The notes under the pieces: generated by a model
Told to the model about the DNA's origin: nothing
Database searches by the model: none
Seen by the model: only the letters and a program-made list of their open reading frames with translations
Source: Gemmatimonadaceae bacterium
Lineage (GTDB): Bacteria; Gemmatimonadota; Gemmatimonadetes; Gemmatimonadales; Gemmatimonadaceae
DNA: 32,253 nucleotides
Direction of reading: 5' to 3'
NCBI GenBank assembly: GCA_013816855.1
Contig: JACDDT010000023.1
Span: forward strand, 1 to 32,253
Position numbers and translations under genes: made by a program
In this document: positions 21,130 through 32,253 of the stretch, one piece after another
Position numbering within the stretch: position 1 is the first letter of the stretch
Layout: each line of letters starts with the position of its first letter

Positions 21130-21312
21130 TAACTACGACTGAAGAACTACCGGCCGGGGGCCGTCGGCGTTGACGGCTTTTGGCCGGGTGCCTTTTCGGA
21201 TAGTTCAACAAAAAGGGAGACCGGGTTTCGGTCTCCTTTTCTCATTGCGAGGCCCGAAGCCATCCGCCGCTCCGCCGAAAGCCCCCGGCCGGTAGTTCTT
21301 ATTTTGTAGTTA
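21130..21312. repeat. Palindromic intergenic element A with bidirectional terminator core
   Basis: It fills the gap between the convergent S9 peptidase and ABC exporter genes. Arms 21142-21161 and 21281-21300 are perfect 20-bp inverted complements (AAGAACTACCGGCCGGGGGC). Outside them TAACTAC (21130-21136) and GTAGTTA (21306-21312) are also complementary, the latter overlapping the exporter stop. At the centre GGAGACCG (21216-21223) and CGGTCTCC (21229-21236) form an 8-bp stem flanked by AAAA on the left and TTTT on the right, so it can terminate both strands. A smaller hairpin GCCGTC/GACGGC (21160-21177) followed by TTTT lies near the left arm. A related copy is at 28525-28712. Confidence 0.85.
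21214..21240. terminator. Bidirectional terminator inside element A
   Basis: Stem GGAGACCG/CGGTCTCC with a five-base loop, TTTT after it on the plus strand and, via AAAA before it, TTTT after it on the minus strand. It is placed to stop both the rightward peptidase transcript and the leftward ABC exporter transcript. Confidence 0.8.
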
Positions 21313-26549: not shown

Positions 26550-28514
26550 ATGACTTCAAGCATTCCGATTTTCAGGCCGACTCCCGAGCGCGCCGAGATG
26601 AATGGCGCCGAGCCGTGGACGATTGAATCCGCTCGCTCGCTCTACAACATCGAAGGGTGGGGAATCGGGTATTTCGACATAAACGCGAAAGGCCACATCG
26701 TGGTGCGCCCGGATGCGAATCGGCCGGAGCGCGAGCTCGATCTATACGAGATGGCAGTCGATTTGGAAGCGCAGGGTGTCAGCCTGCCGGTGCTGCTTCG
26801 GTTCTCCGATATCCTCCGATCGCGGATTGAATCGCTGGCCGCAAAATTCGCCGGAGCGAAAGAAGAGTACGGATATAGCGGCGGCTACACGACCGTTTTC
26901 CCGATCAAAGTCAATCAGCAGCGCCACGTAGTGGAGGAGATTGTTGAGTTCGGAAAGGCGACGGGCGTGGGACTGGAGTGCGGAAGCAAGCCGGAGCTGC
27001 AGGCGGTTCTCGGGCTCGCCGAGCACACCGACCACTTGATCGTATGCAACGGATACAAGGACGAGGAGTTCATGCGCCTCGCCCTCATGGGCCAGAAGCT
27101 CGGCCATCAGGTGTTCATCGTTCTCGAGCAGCTTTCCGAAGTGGACATCCTTCTTCAGGTGGCGGATGAGCTTGGCGTGAATCCGACGGCTGGGGTTCGC
27201 ATCAAGCTCACCACGGAAGGATCGGGACGATGGGCGAAGAGCGGAGGCGAGAAGTCGAAATTCGGCCTCACCGCCGCGCAGCTCGTGAAGCTCATCGACA
27301 AGCTCAGGGCGGCGAATCGCCTCGACATCATCAAGCTGATCCATTTCCATCTCGGATCTCAGATAACCGACATCCACTTCATCAAGACGGGTCTGCAGGA
27401 GATCGCGCGCTATTACGCCGAGCTGCGCGCGCTCGGCGTAGACATCACGCACGTTGACGTCGGCGGCGGATTGGGAGTGGATTACGACGGAAGCAACTCG
27501 ACGTCGCAGGCGAGCGTGAACTATTCGCTGCAGGAATACGCGAACGACGTGATCTATACTTTGGCGGAGGCCTGCAGAGAGCACGAGCTGCCGATGCCGC
27601 ACGTGATCAGCGAGTCCGGGCGCGCGCTCACCGCGCACCACGCACTTCTCCTCATCAGCGTCATCGACGTGGAGTCGCAGGCGGACAACGTCGTGCCGGA
27701 GCTGACCGAAGAGAATCACTCGATGCTTCACGAGATGGCTTCGGATTACGCCAGCATATCGTCGCGCCGCGTGCGAGAGGTGTATCATGACGCTTCCTTC
27801 GCGAAGGAGCGCGCGCACGAGCTGTTCAACAGCGGCGTGCTCTCCCTGCGCGACCGAGCCATCGCCGAGCAGGTTTATCTGGCGACCATCTCGAAGGTCG
27901 CCCTTCTCGCGCAGCGGGACCGGGATGAGTACGAGGATATCATCGAGGATCTCGAAGCGATTCTCGTTGACCGGTACTTTTGCAACTTCTCGCTCTTCCA
28001 ATCGCTTCCCGACAGCTGGGCAATCGACCAGCTGTTTCCCATCGTTCCGATTCACCGGCTTGACGAAGAGCCGATCCGTCGCGGGACGATTCAGGACGTC
28101 ACCTGCGACAGCGACGGTAAGATCGAGCAATTCATTGGCGACCGGCCTTACAGAAAGAGTCTCGAGCTCCATCCGTTCGAGGACGGGAACCCCTATATCC
28201 TCGGAATCTTTCTCACCGGCGCATACCAGGAAATCCTCGGCGATTTGCACAACCTTTTCGGCGACACGAACGCCGTCCACATCCGGCTGCCGAAAAAGAA
28301 AAAAGGTTATGAAGTCACCGATCTGGTTCACGGCGACACCGTGACCGAGGTTCTCGATTACGTGCAGTTCCGCGCTTCCGATTTGCTGGCCGTGTTCCGG
28401 CGCAAAGTGAACAACGCGAATAATCTCACGAGGCAGGAGGCGAATACGTTCGTCGCGGATTACCTCGCGGGGCTCGAGGGGTATACGTACCTCGAGGGTG
28501 AGGCGGCGCGGTAG
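26550..28514 (+). CDS. speA: SpeA: biosynthetic arginine decarboxylase
   Basis: 654-aa PLP enzyme of fold type III that converts arginine to agmatine, the first step of one putrescine/spermidine route. The PLP-binding Lys is K120 in 'YTTVFPIKVNQQRHV'. The glycine-rich phosphate loop is 'VDVGGGLGVDYDGS', and the catalytic cysteine lies in 'DVTCDSDGKI' near residue 515. The N-terminal 'YNIEGWGIGYFDINAKGHI' and 'LDLYEMAVDLEAQGVSLPVL' are diagnostic of the long biosynthetic SpeA. Size fits (E. coli 658). The gene is followed by palindromic element B, which supplies its terminator. No speB or other polyamine gene is in the window. Confidence 0.96.
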   Translation: MTSSIPIFRPTPERAEMNGAEPWTIESARSLYNIEGWGIGYFDINAKGHIVVRPDANRPERELDLYEMAVDLEAQGVSLPVLLRFSDILRSRIESLAAKFAGAKEEYGYSGGYTTVFPIKVNQQRHVVEEIVEFGKATGVGLECGSKPELQAVLGLAEHTDHLIVCNGYKDEEFMRLALMGQKLGHQVFIVLEQLSEVDILLQVADELGVNPTAGVRIKLTTEGSGRWAKSGGEKSKFGLTAAQLVKLIDKLRAANRLDIIKLIHFHLGSQITDIHFIKTGLQEIARYYAELRALGVDITHVDVGGGLGVDYDGSNSTSQASVNYSLQEYANDVIYTLAEACREHELPMPHVISESGRALTAHHALLLISVIDVESQADNVVPELTEENHSMLHEMASDYASISSRRVREVYHDASFAKERAHELFNSGVLSLRDRAIAEQVYLATISKVALLAQRDRDEYEDIIEDLEAILVDRYFCNFSLFQSLPDSWAIDQLFPIVPIHRLDEEPIRRGTIQDVTCDSDGKIEQFIGDRPYRKSLELHPFEDGNPYILGIFLTGAYQEILGDLHNLFGDTNAVHIRLPKKKKGYEVTDLVHGDTVTEVLDYVQFRASDLLAVFRRKVNNANNLTRQEANTFVADYLAGLEGYTYLEGEAAR

Positions 28515-28524
28515 AACTACAACG

Positions 28525-28712
28525 TAAGAAATACCGGCCGGGGGCTTTCGGCTTAGCCGGCCCGGGGCTGCGGGCTTGGCGAGGGTTCGAACAATTGCTC
28601 GGCAATAAAAAAAAGGAGACCGTCGTGGTCTCCTTCTTTATTCGTGATCGTTCCGTGGTCAGGCGCCAAGCCCGAAGCCGCTCCGCCCAAAGCCCCCGGC
28701 CGGTCGTTCTTA
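28525..28712. repeat. Palindromic intergenic element B, related to element A
   Basis: It fills the gap between convergent speA and sodA. The left arm from 28525 (TAAGAAATACCGGCCGGGGG...) and the right arm ending 28712 are inverted complements over 28 positions with three mismatches; CGGGCTTGGCG (28571-28581) pairs with CGCCAAGCCCG (28664-28674) further in. The core hairpin GGAGACC (28615-28621)/GGTCTCC (28627-28633) has A8 before it and TTCTTT after it. The right flank GCCCGAAGCC...GCTCCGCC.AAAGCCCCCGGCCGGT is almost the same as in element A, which carries an extra seven bases. A further hairpin ATTGC/GCAAT is at 28594-28606. Confidence 0.85.
28607..28640. terminator. Bidirectional terminator inside element B
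   Basis: Stem GGAGACC/GGTCTCC with loop GTCGT. Eight A on the left give a strong U-run for leftward transcripts (sodA); TTCTTT on the right gives a weaker one for speA. The same stem sequence is used in element A. Confidence 0.8.
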
Positions 28713-28726
28713 GTTTGTCGTTCTCT

Positions 28727-29329
28727 TTACTTCCCGAACCTCTTCTCCACTTCCTTCCAATTCACAACGTTCCACCAGGCCGCCATGTAATCCGGCCGCT
28801 TGTTCTGGTACTTGAGGTAGTACGCGTGCTCCCAGACATCGAGTCCGAGGATGGCGTTTTTCCCCTCCATGAGCGGATTGTCCTGATTCGGCGTGGTCGT
28901 GATCGAGAGCTTTCCGCCGTCATTGACCAGCCACACCCACCCGGATCCGAAGCGTCCTGCGCCCGCGGCTTGAAACTGTTCCTTGAACTTCGCGAAATCG
29001 CCGAACGCGCTCGAGATGGCGGAGCCAAGCGCTCCACCCGGCTCGCCACCGGCGCCCGGTCCCATGACCTGCCAGAACATCGAATGGTTCCAGTGTCCAC
29101 CGCCGTTGTTGCGAACGGCCGTGCGAACGGCTTCCGGAACGGAATTGATCCCTCGCATCAAATCGTCGAGGGATTTGTTCGCCAGCTCGGGCGTTTTCTC
29201 GACCGCCGCATTGAGATTCGTGACGTAGCTCTGGTGATGCTTGCCGTGATGAATCTCCATCGTCTTCGCATCTATGTGCGGCTCGAGTGCGCCGATATCG
29301 TAGGGAAGGGTTGGAAGTGTGAATGCCAT
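28727..29329 (-). CDS. sodA: Superoxide dismutase, Mn-type
   Basis: 200-aa Fe/Mn-superfamily SOD converting superoxide to peroxide and oxygen in the cytoplasm. Metal ligands are H27 ('[12 protein letters not shown]'), H82 ('[11 protein letters not shown]'), D164 and H168 ('[11 protein letters not shown]'). Q149 in 'TPNQDNPL' and the Gly-rich 'NNGGGHW' favour manganese over iron, although cambialistic use cannot be excluded. Two ATGs are possible. GAGGAG sits directly next to the upstream one (29333-29335) but 7 bases before the ATG at 29327-29329, so the latter is preferred. The gene is followed by element B and preceded by the DedA gene in the same orientation, 67 bp away. Confidence 0.95.
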
Positions 29330-29396
29330 TATCATCTCCTCGTTCGTTCAGGGCGCATGCGCCCGCCGTTCCTGCCGGCTCCGGAATCTCCGGCGC

Positions 29397-32166: not shown

Positions 32167-32253
32167 AAGCAGTGCTTCAGGGCGCGCTTACGCTTCGAGA
32201 GAACTGCAACTGAACGCGTTCCCGGTTCCCGGTAACGAACGTTGCCGGTGGCC

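Follow-up and report, generated by a model that had tools for sequence, protein, structure and literature searches.

Background

Palindromic copies without an open reading frame (ORF) that accompany a related full locus encoding one protein are known from the REPIN/BIME repeats with RAYT. A further parallel is offered by the intervening sequences (IVS) of 23S rRNA that contain the gene of the S23 or intervening-sequence protein (S23/IVP), for instance in Coxiella burnetii, which according to the available part of that report have terminal inverted repeats forming a long stem with S23 inside, occur sporadically and are suspected to be an old mobile element (PMC4990558). The same part describes the origin of the Coxiella IVS as unclear and its mobility as long ago proposed, and it suggests that S23 is not made in vivo from the IVS (PMC4990558), which counts against a reading in which S23 drives the element. 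In the excerpts available, IVP is also reported from rRNA insertions of CPR (PMC11270868) and the Avd protein of diversity-generating retroelements (DGR) is described as homologous to S23 (PMC10053308); solved structures of S23 proteins exist (2gsc, XCC0516, and 2rld). Finally, repeats of 7 bp that are intergenic and often close to stop codons have been described as the families GGGAATC in Xanthomonas and GGGGA(C/T)T in Nostoc (PMC4692102) and as TAACTGA in Beggiatoaceae, Cyanobacteria and Bacteroidetes (PMC4679880). Xanthomonas has 70-75 inverted convergent heptamer pairs per genome, and the available sections of that paper report the inverted pairs and their closeness to stop codons without a link to mobile elements (PMC4692102); those of the Beggiatoaceae study muse on a repeat-binding protein as mobile element and name none (PMC4679880).

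Here we analyse a window of 32,253 nucleotides (contig JACDDT010000023.1) from a 2.47-Mb Gemmatimonadales draft genome of 170 contigs, which holds two palindromic copies, A and B, of one repeat family. Like the rRNA IVS, the elements of this kind have terminal inverted repeats that form a long stem and are sporadic in distribution; some of them, such as a copy on contig C104 but not copy B, have S23 inside. They differ from the IVS, which are excised by RNase III, in that they lie between protein genes chromosome-wide and on plasmids, in many copies and many of them without the gene, copy B itself being placed between arginine decarboxylase and superoxide dismutase genes rather than in 23S rRNA. 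Whereas the heptamer papers name no protein in their accessible parts (PMC4692102, PMC4679880), the inverted arrays here are the ends of S23-bearing elements. The arm family is an intergenic palindromic multicopy repeat as REP/BIME are, but the window's own genome has no Y1 transposase, the protein is S23 and the arms are 7-bp arrays. Different from Avd in DGRs, the S23 genes occur in a genus in which 16 of 19 genomes, the window's own included, lack a reverse transcriptase. Among open-licence PMC articles, as distinct from subscription papers and preprints, we found no link of S23 to heptamer arrays or to intergenic palindromes, and the accessible parts of PMC4990558, PMC4679880, PMC4692102, PMC11270868 and PMC10053308 make no connection between S23 and arrays.

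Results

Copies A and B lie 7.4 kb apart (Table 1). As the earlier note had described, both carry the GGAGACC/GGTCTCC stem and differ in loops and spacers, A having a 7-nt insertion (ATCCGCC) and five A's before the stem against eight in B. By the arm model B spans 28515-28722, slightly more than the piece first described (28525-28712). Direct pairing aligns the inverted arms of B over 54 nt (28513-28566 with 28671-28724, 78% complementary) and those of A over 40 nt (21130-21169 with 21273-21312, 85%), and the two copies are alike at 84% over 62 nt in their right parts and 81% over 47 nt in their left parts. The predicted folds are very stable (B, -118.5 kcal/mol, z -9.0; A, -110.8 kcal/mol, z -9.9), none of 200 shuffles equalling either. 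The interior of both copies has the form of an intrinsic terminator, a GC hairpin followed by a T-run, termination itself being a prediction. A scan of the window against Rfam gave no match at the gathering threshold.

Table 1. Coordinates of features in the window
Feature	Position	Strand	Basis
Copy A left arm	21131..21194	+	E 1.3e-14, arm model
Copy A interior terminator-like hairpin	21216..21236	.	
Copy A right arm	21249..21311	-	E 1.3e-19, arm model
Arginine decarboxylase gene, ends at copy B	26550..28514	+	Pfam PF02784, PF17810, PF17944
Copy B left arm (unit of 64 nt with its AACTAC... end outward)	28515..28577	+	E 2.9e-16, arm model
Copy B interior terminator-like hairpin (core GGAGACC, preceded by an A-run and followed by T-rich sequence)	28613..28635	.	
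Copy B right arm (64-nt unit, inverted)	28661..28722	-	E 1.2e-17, arm model
Fe/Mn superoxide dismutase gene, converges on copy B	28727..29335	-	Pfam PF00081, PF02777
First part of an element truncated by the window end, with arms of a different family (that of S23 element L031)	32202..32253	+	Outer motif match; arm likeness to L031, L261, L262 by eye

The 64-nt arm is found at 20 loci of the genome, ten with two arms and ten with one, so that the two copies do belong to a family of elements. A DNA search gave 16 loci with 26 arms, and a sequence model of those arms raised the number to 20, each of the four added loci having one clear arm. The unit measures about 64 nt, and its AACTAC end points outward in all ten two-arm loci. 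Counting the window's own, 11 of the 19 genomes of the genus have the family, and none of the 42 from outside does. Other parts of the first reading did not hold. The motif GGAGACC-N3-9-GGTCTCC occurs genome-wide only at A and B, and the supposedly conserved terminator core is therefore a trait of these two alone, one of which could have been copied from the other; by eye, one more locus, C30, resembles them in its A- and T-runs but not in the hairpin itself. Nor is there a sign of maintained pairing: in the ten two-arm elements arms match within an element hardly better than between elements (56.7 versus 55.7, permutation p 0.39), and in the consensus fold of the single arm no pair has changed on both sides. 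Since arms match no better within a copy than across copies, covariation is not supported, a stem selected by covariation was rejected on the two tests, and what forms the arms is a single repeat unit in inverted copies, not a stem that co-varies. The local duplication that the earlier note would have read from two copies without covariation thus fits in one respect only, as there is no covariation and there are many copies.

The arms have a seven-base period, although by look they do not resemble simple repeats. Among lags 2-29 the self-match of the window-family arms is highest at lag 7 (0.439 versus 0.274 when shuffled; lags 22 and 14 come next), the 26 arms tested sharing ancestry and hence not being 26 independent tests. 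The flanks of S23 genes show the same lag-7 excess in the genus (0.321 versus 0.254 in controls, 71 loci) and in other phyla (0.369 versus 0.256, 75 loci), with peaks at lags 7, 14 and 21 that are absent from controls, the lag-21 value in the genus being below the codon-driven control. At L035:1260-1390 about six tandem copies of a unit of about 21 nt, three heptamers each, adjoin the arm of an S23 element.

Both copies are flanked by convergent genes. The left arm of B directly adjoins the TAG that ends the arginine decarboxylase gene (distance 0) and its right arm lies 4 nt from the superoxide dismutase stop; the left arm of A lies 3 nt past the stop of an S9 peptidase gene and its right arm overlaps the stop codon of an ABC transporter gene (-2). 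Genome-wide, 19 of 26 arm ends of the family face a gene 3' end, with the stop codon from 12 nt inside to 29 nt outside the arm, and 7 face gene starts; of the ends of S23 elements in the genus 68 point to the 3' side of a gene, 29 to the 5' side and 15 are undecided, all these gene ends being called by a codon-usage heuristic, not annotation, on arms that themselves hold stop codons.

Arms of copy B's family also enclose an S23 gene on contig C104 of the same genome (TIGR02436, E 3.1e-30), copy B itself enclosing none. All seven S23 genes of this genome lie between inverted arms (score at least 57), which are of different arm families. In the genus PF05635 matched 72 times, in 17 of 19 genomes, which makes 71 loci after merging two pieces of one broken gene, and eight loci with a short flank were dropped. 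Inverted arms scoring at least 40 surround 56 of the remaining 63 genes, typically 60-100 nt long at 80-92%, the other seven falling below this strict threshold, as compared to none of 121 control positions taken 850 nt away within these loci (highest score 37) and 44 of 600 combinations with left and right flanks swapped. A set of 80 S23 loci from many phyla, two of which were dropped, gave such arms in 33 of 78 at a score of at least 40 and in 58 at one of at least 30 (controls 4/281 and 13/281); three of the 78 come from the window's own genus and are apparently genes already in the genus test, and the 45 below the strict threshold are mostly of other phyla. In the cultured Gemmatirosa kalamazoonensis, inverted arrays of GGCAGGA enclose an S23 gene (score 61). 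A distant S23 subfamily with the start DPLxRMRAY... has very long arms of its own, 68-128 nt (L079, L113, L115, L117, L118, L119, L120), and the element cut by the window end has its S23-bearing form in L031 (contig C113) and short ORF-less forms in L261 and L262. No S23 gene was found in 50,697 phage records.

The ORF-less copies hold no trace of an S23 remnant (best tblastn E 0.13), and the idea that they are deletion remnants of S23 elements was rejected on this ground. Together with the ten of 20 loci that have one arm, this suggests that ORF-less forms may not stem from full ones by simple deletion.

Arms and S23 travel together between unrelated sites. Among 51 of the 56 armed elements, five with a protein under 70 aa having been dropped, arm similarity tracks S23 identity, the correlation being weak (Mantel rho 0.224, reached by 0 of 2000 permutations). 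For 26 of the 51 the nearest S23 from another genome has the same arm family, against a background of 0.035, and pairs from different genomes have a median S23 identity of 0.73 with shared arms and 0.50 with unrelated arms. Comparison of the genes up to about 1.1 kb beyond the arms revealed homology in two of the 46 pairs with common arms, the other 44 showing none on either side. The window's arm family encloses S23 in seven elements of five genomes (G000, G003, G011, G014, G017), yet in G008, which has many arms of this family, the sole S23 detected is in another arm family. In one case (L075 in G018, L077 in G015) the same genes lie on both sides, the arms are unrelated and the S23 genes are 70% identical, which points either to one site used repeatedly or to arm turnover.

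The site occupied by copy B, where the decarboxylase and superoxide dismutase genes meet, was compared across 16 sister genomes. Five have a gap of at most 69 nt, including G002, where the gene ends overlap, seven have palindromes and four have other content. All seven palindromes have arm scores above those of 200 shuffles and they represent at least four arm families: the window's family in G000, a second in G016, G008 and G011, which may go back to one old event of insertion, arrays of 7-bp units in both G010 and G013, and another family in G017. In five of the seven (G000, G010, G011, G013, G016) the same genome has an S23 gene between matching arms; in G008 and G017 none was found. Of the four with other content, G009 has an 80-nt insert that was rejected as a palindrome (arm score 13, shuffle maximum 19), one is unreadable (N), and G015 and G018 (L220, L219) have about 1 kb of other sequence where sisters hold palindromes.

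Plasmids provide empty and filled sites. S23 occurs in 34 of 72,556 plasmid records, chiefly cyanobacterial, among them Nostoc plasmids that share an operon (g1-g4) at 91-96% identity. Between g2 and g3 five records have a 3-nt gap and three are longer by 417 nt, with S23 between CAGGAGT/CAGAAGT arrays; L249, with another small ORF at this place, was assigned to neither group, and L250 was left out. One of the three filled records has an extra 182-nt insert, an ORF-less palindrome that has heptamers of this type and a structured interior that is not repetitive, and that splits the S23 gene (L246:771-1334) with no base lost and at most 1 nt duplicated. The gap between g3 and g4 is closed in seven records, and in one it is filled by another S23 element, whose arms are of the AAAGGGG type; that between g1 and g2 holds ORF-less heptamer palindromes in five and measures at most 22 nt in four, one of which is 88% identical. 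S23 elements also lie between cas6 and cas4, cas10 and cmr3, and nrdB and nrdA, and relatives without S23 (gap 36-40 nt) were found for the first and the last of these. On the cyanobacterial plasmids L233, L236 and L238 S23 genes with heptamer arrays break CRISPR operons (cas6-cas4, cas10-cmr3). The apparent association of S23 with CRISPR may come only from such insertions, and they may also explain why a figure legend in a CRISPR survey, of which part was available, lists 23S rRNA IVP among its proteins (PMC10910872).

Discussion

The original observation of two related palindromes is right, its reading in terms of a conserved terminator and of covariation does not hold, and the phenomenon is larger than was thought. 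We consider it likely that copy B represents an IVS-like mobile element in its ORF-less form, S23 being the element's sole protein, and that it has settled at a 3'-3' gene junction. Such an element would have a pair of inverted arms, both of them diverged arrays of repeats of about 7 bp, and in the full form these arms would enclose one gene for the S23/IVP four-helix bundle, and full and ORF-less forms would live side by side in one genome. It would land in intergenic space, mostly right at stop codons and with no visible target-site duplication. The family, the association of S23 with arms, their co-segregation, the movement and the position all emerge from comparison of sequences. Movement itself is the strongest step, of which we are highly confident. 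Mobility, for which the earlier note had looked to target-site duplications, is well supported by the sister genomes and the empty sites, while no such duplication is seen at A or B.

For the role of S23, the intermediate and termination we rely on inference. S23 may recognise its own arms as a hairpin of DNA or RNA and drive or protect the movement of both full and ORF-less copies or serve to maintain them, a role like that of RAYT for REPINs with a different protein, for which no host reverse transcriptase would be needed. This is the weakest step, toward which the evidence leans modestly. We know of no catalytic site in S23, and because no duplication is seen, joining would be left to host enzymes. 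A resident reverse transcriptase as partner of S23, as for Avd in DGRs, was considered and rejected, being absent from the window's own genome and from G011 (98% complete, eight S23 matches); RVT_1 was found in three of the 19 genomes of the genus. At its 3'-3' junction copy B probably acts as a two-way terminator or as an RNase III substrate for converging transcripts.

That A and B are nothing but two-way terminators of the host, locally duplicated and only incidentally linked to S23, is strongly disfavoured as a full account and in our judgement quite unlikely. Both indeed lie in convergent junctions with a terminator-like hairpin, and the core hairpin is confined to these two neighbouring places. 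However, the arms are common to 20 loci, most of which lack the GGAGACC hairpin, the same junction in sister genomes has unrelated palindromes or nothing, and 7 of the 26 arm ends are turned towards a gene start. The palindromic, multicopy, intergenic and ORF-less nature of the copies would also suit a family of the REP/BIME or MITE kind that owes its movement to a classical transposase (RAYT or DDE) encoded elsewhere and in which S23 is a captured passenger. We regard this as unlikely, since the Y1 transposase (PF01797) has no match in the window's own genome, a result that also led us to reject RAYT as the mover (5 of 14 control genomes were positive), the duplication expected of a MITE is absent at A and B and amounts to at most 1 nt at the clean Nostoc insertion, and S23 recurs between arms of many unrelated families.

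One might further suppose that the 7-bp arrays arise by replication slippage at gene ends and that S23 is a host family which prefers, or is tolerated in, such arrays, as heptamer arrays are widespread, judging from the available parts of PMC4679880 and PMC4692102, and their lengths differ among relatives. Slippage would not readily explain that the arms pair as inverted repeats, that clean units of 182 and 417 nt are inserted where relatives with 91-96% identity are empty, and that S23 and arms co-segregate between non-homologous sites, and we think it very improbable.

Conclusions

For decades S23/IVP has been known from rRNA intervening sequences with no function assigned to it, and descriptions of heptamer arrays have come with no protein. 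The anatomy of arms plus S23 joins both and makes it testable whether S23 binds its own arms and moves them, cultured hosts being on offer in Nostoc strains and Gemmatirosa kalamazoonensis, and it explains S23 genes inside cas and nrd clusters as insertions. Tentatively, and at a little short of an even chance, we extend this to S23/IVP proteins in general, which may be mobility factors of palindromic elements that span phyla and have arms of heptamer repeats; the rRNA IVSs, along with heptamer arrays and palindromes scattered over many bacterial genomes, would then be full, ORF-less or decayed copies of them. If true, this would be a class of mobile elements without any known recombinase that targets the 3' ends of genes.
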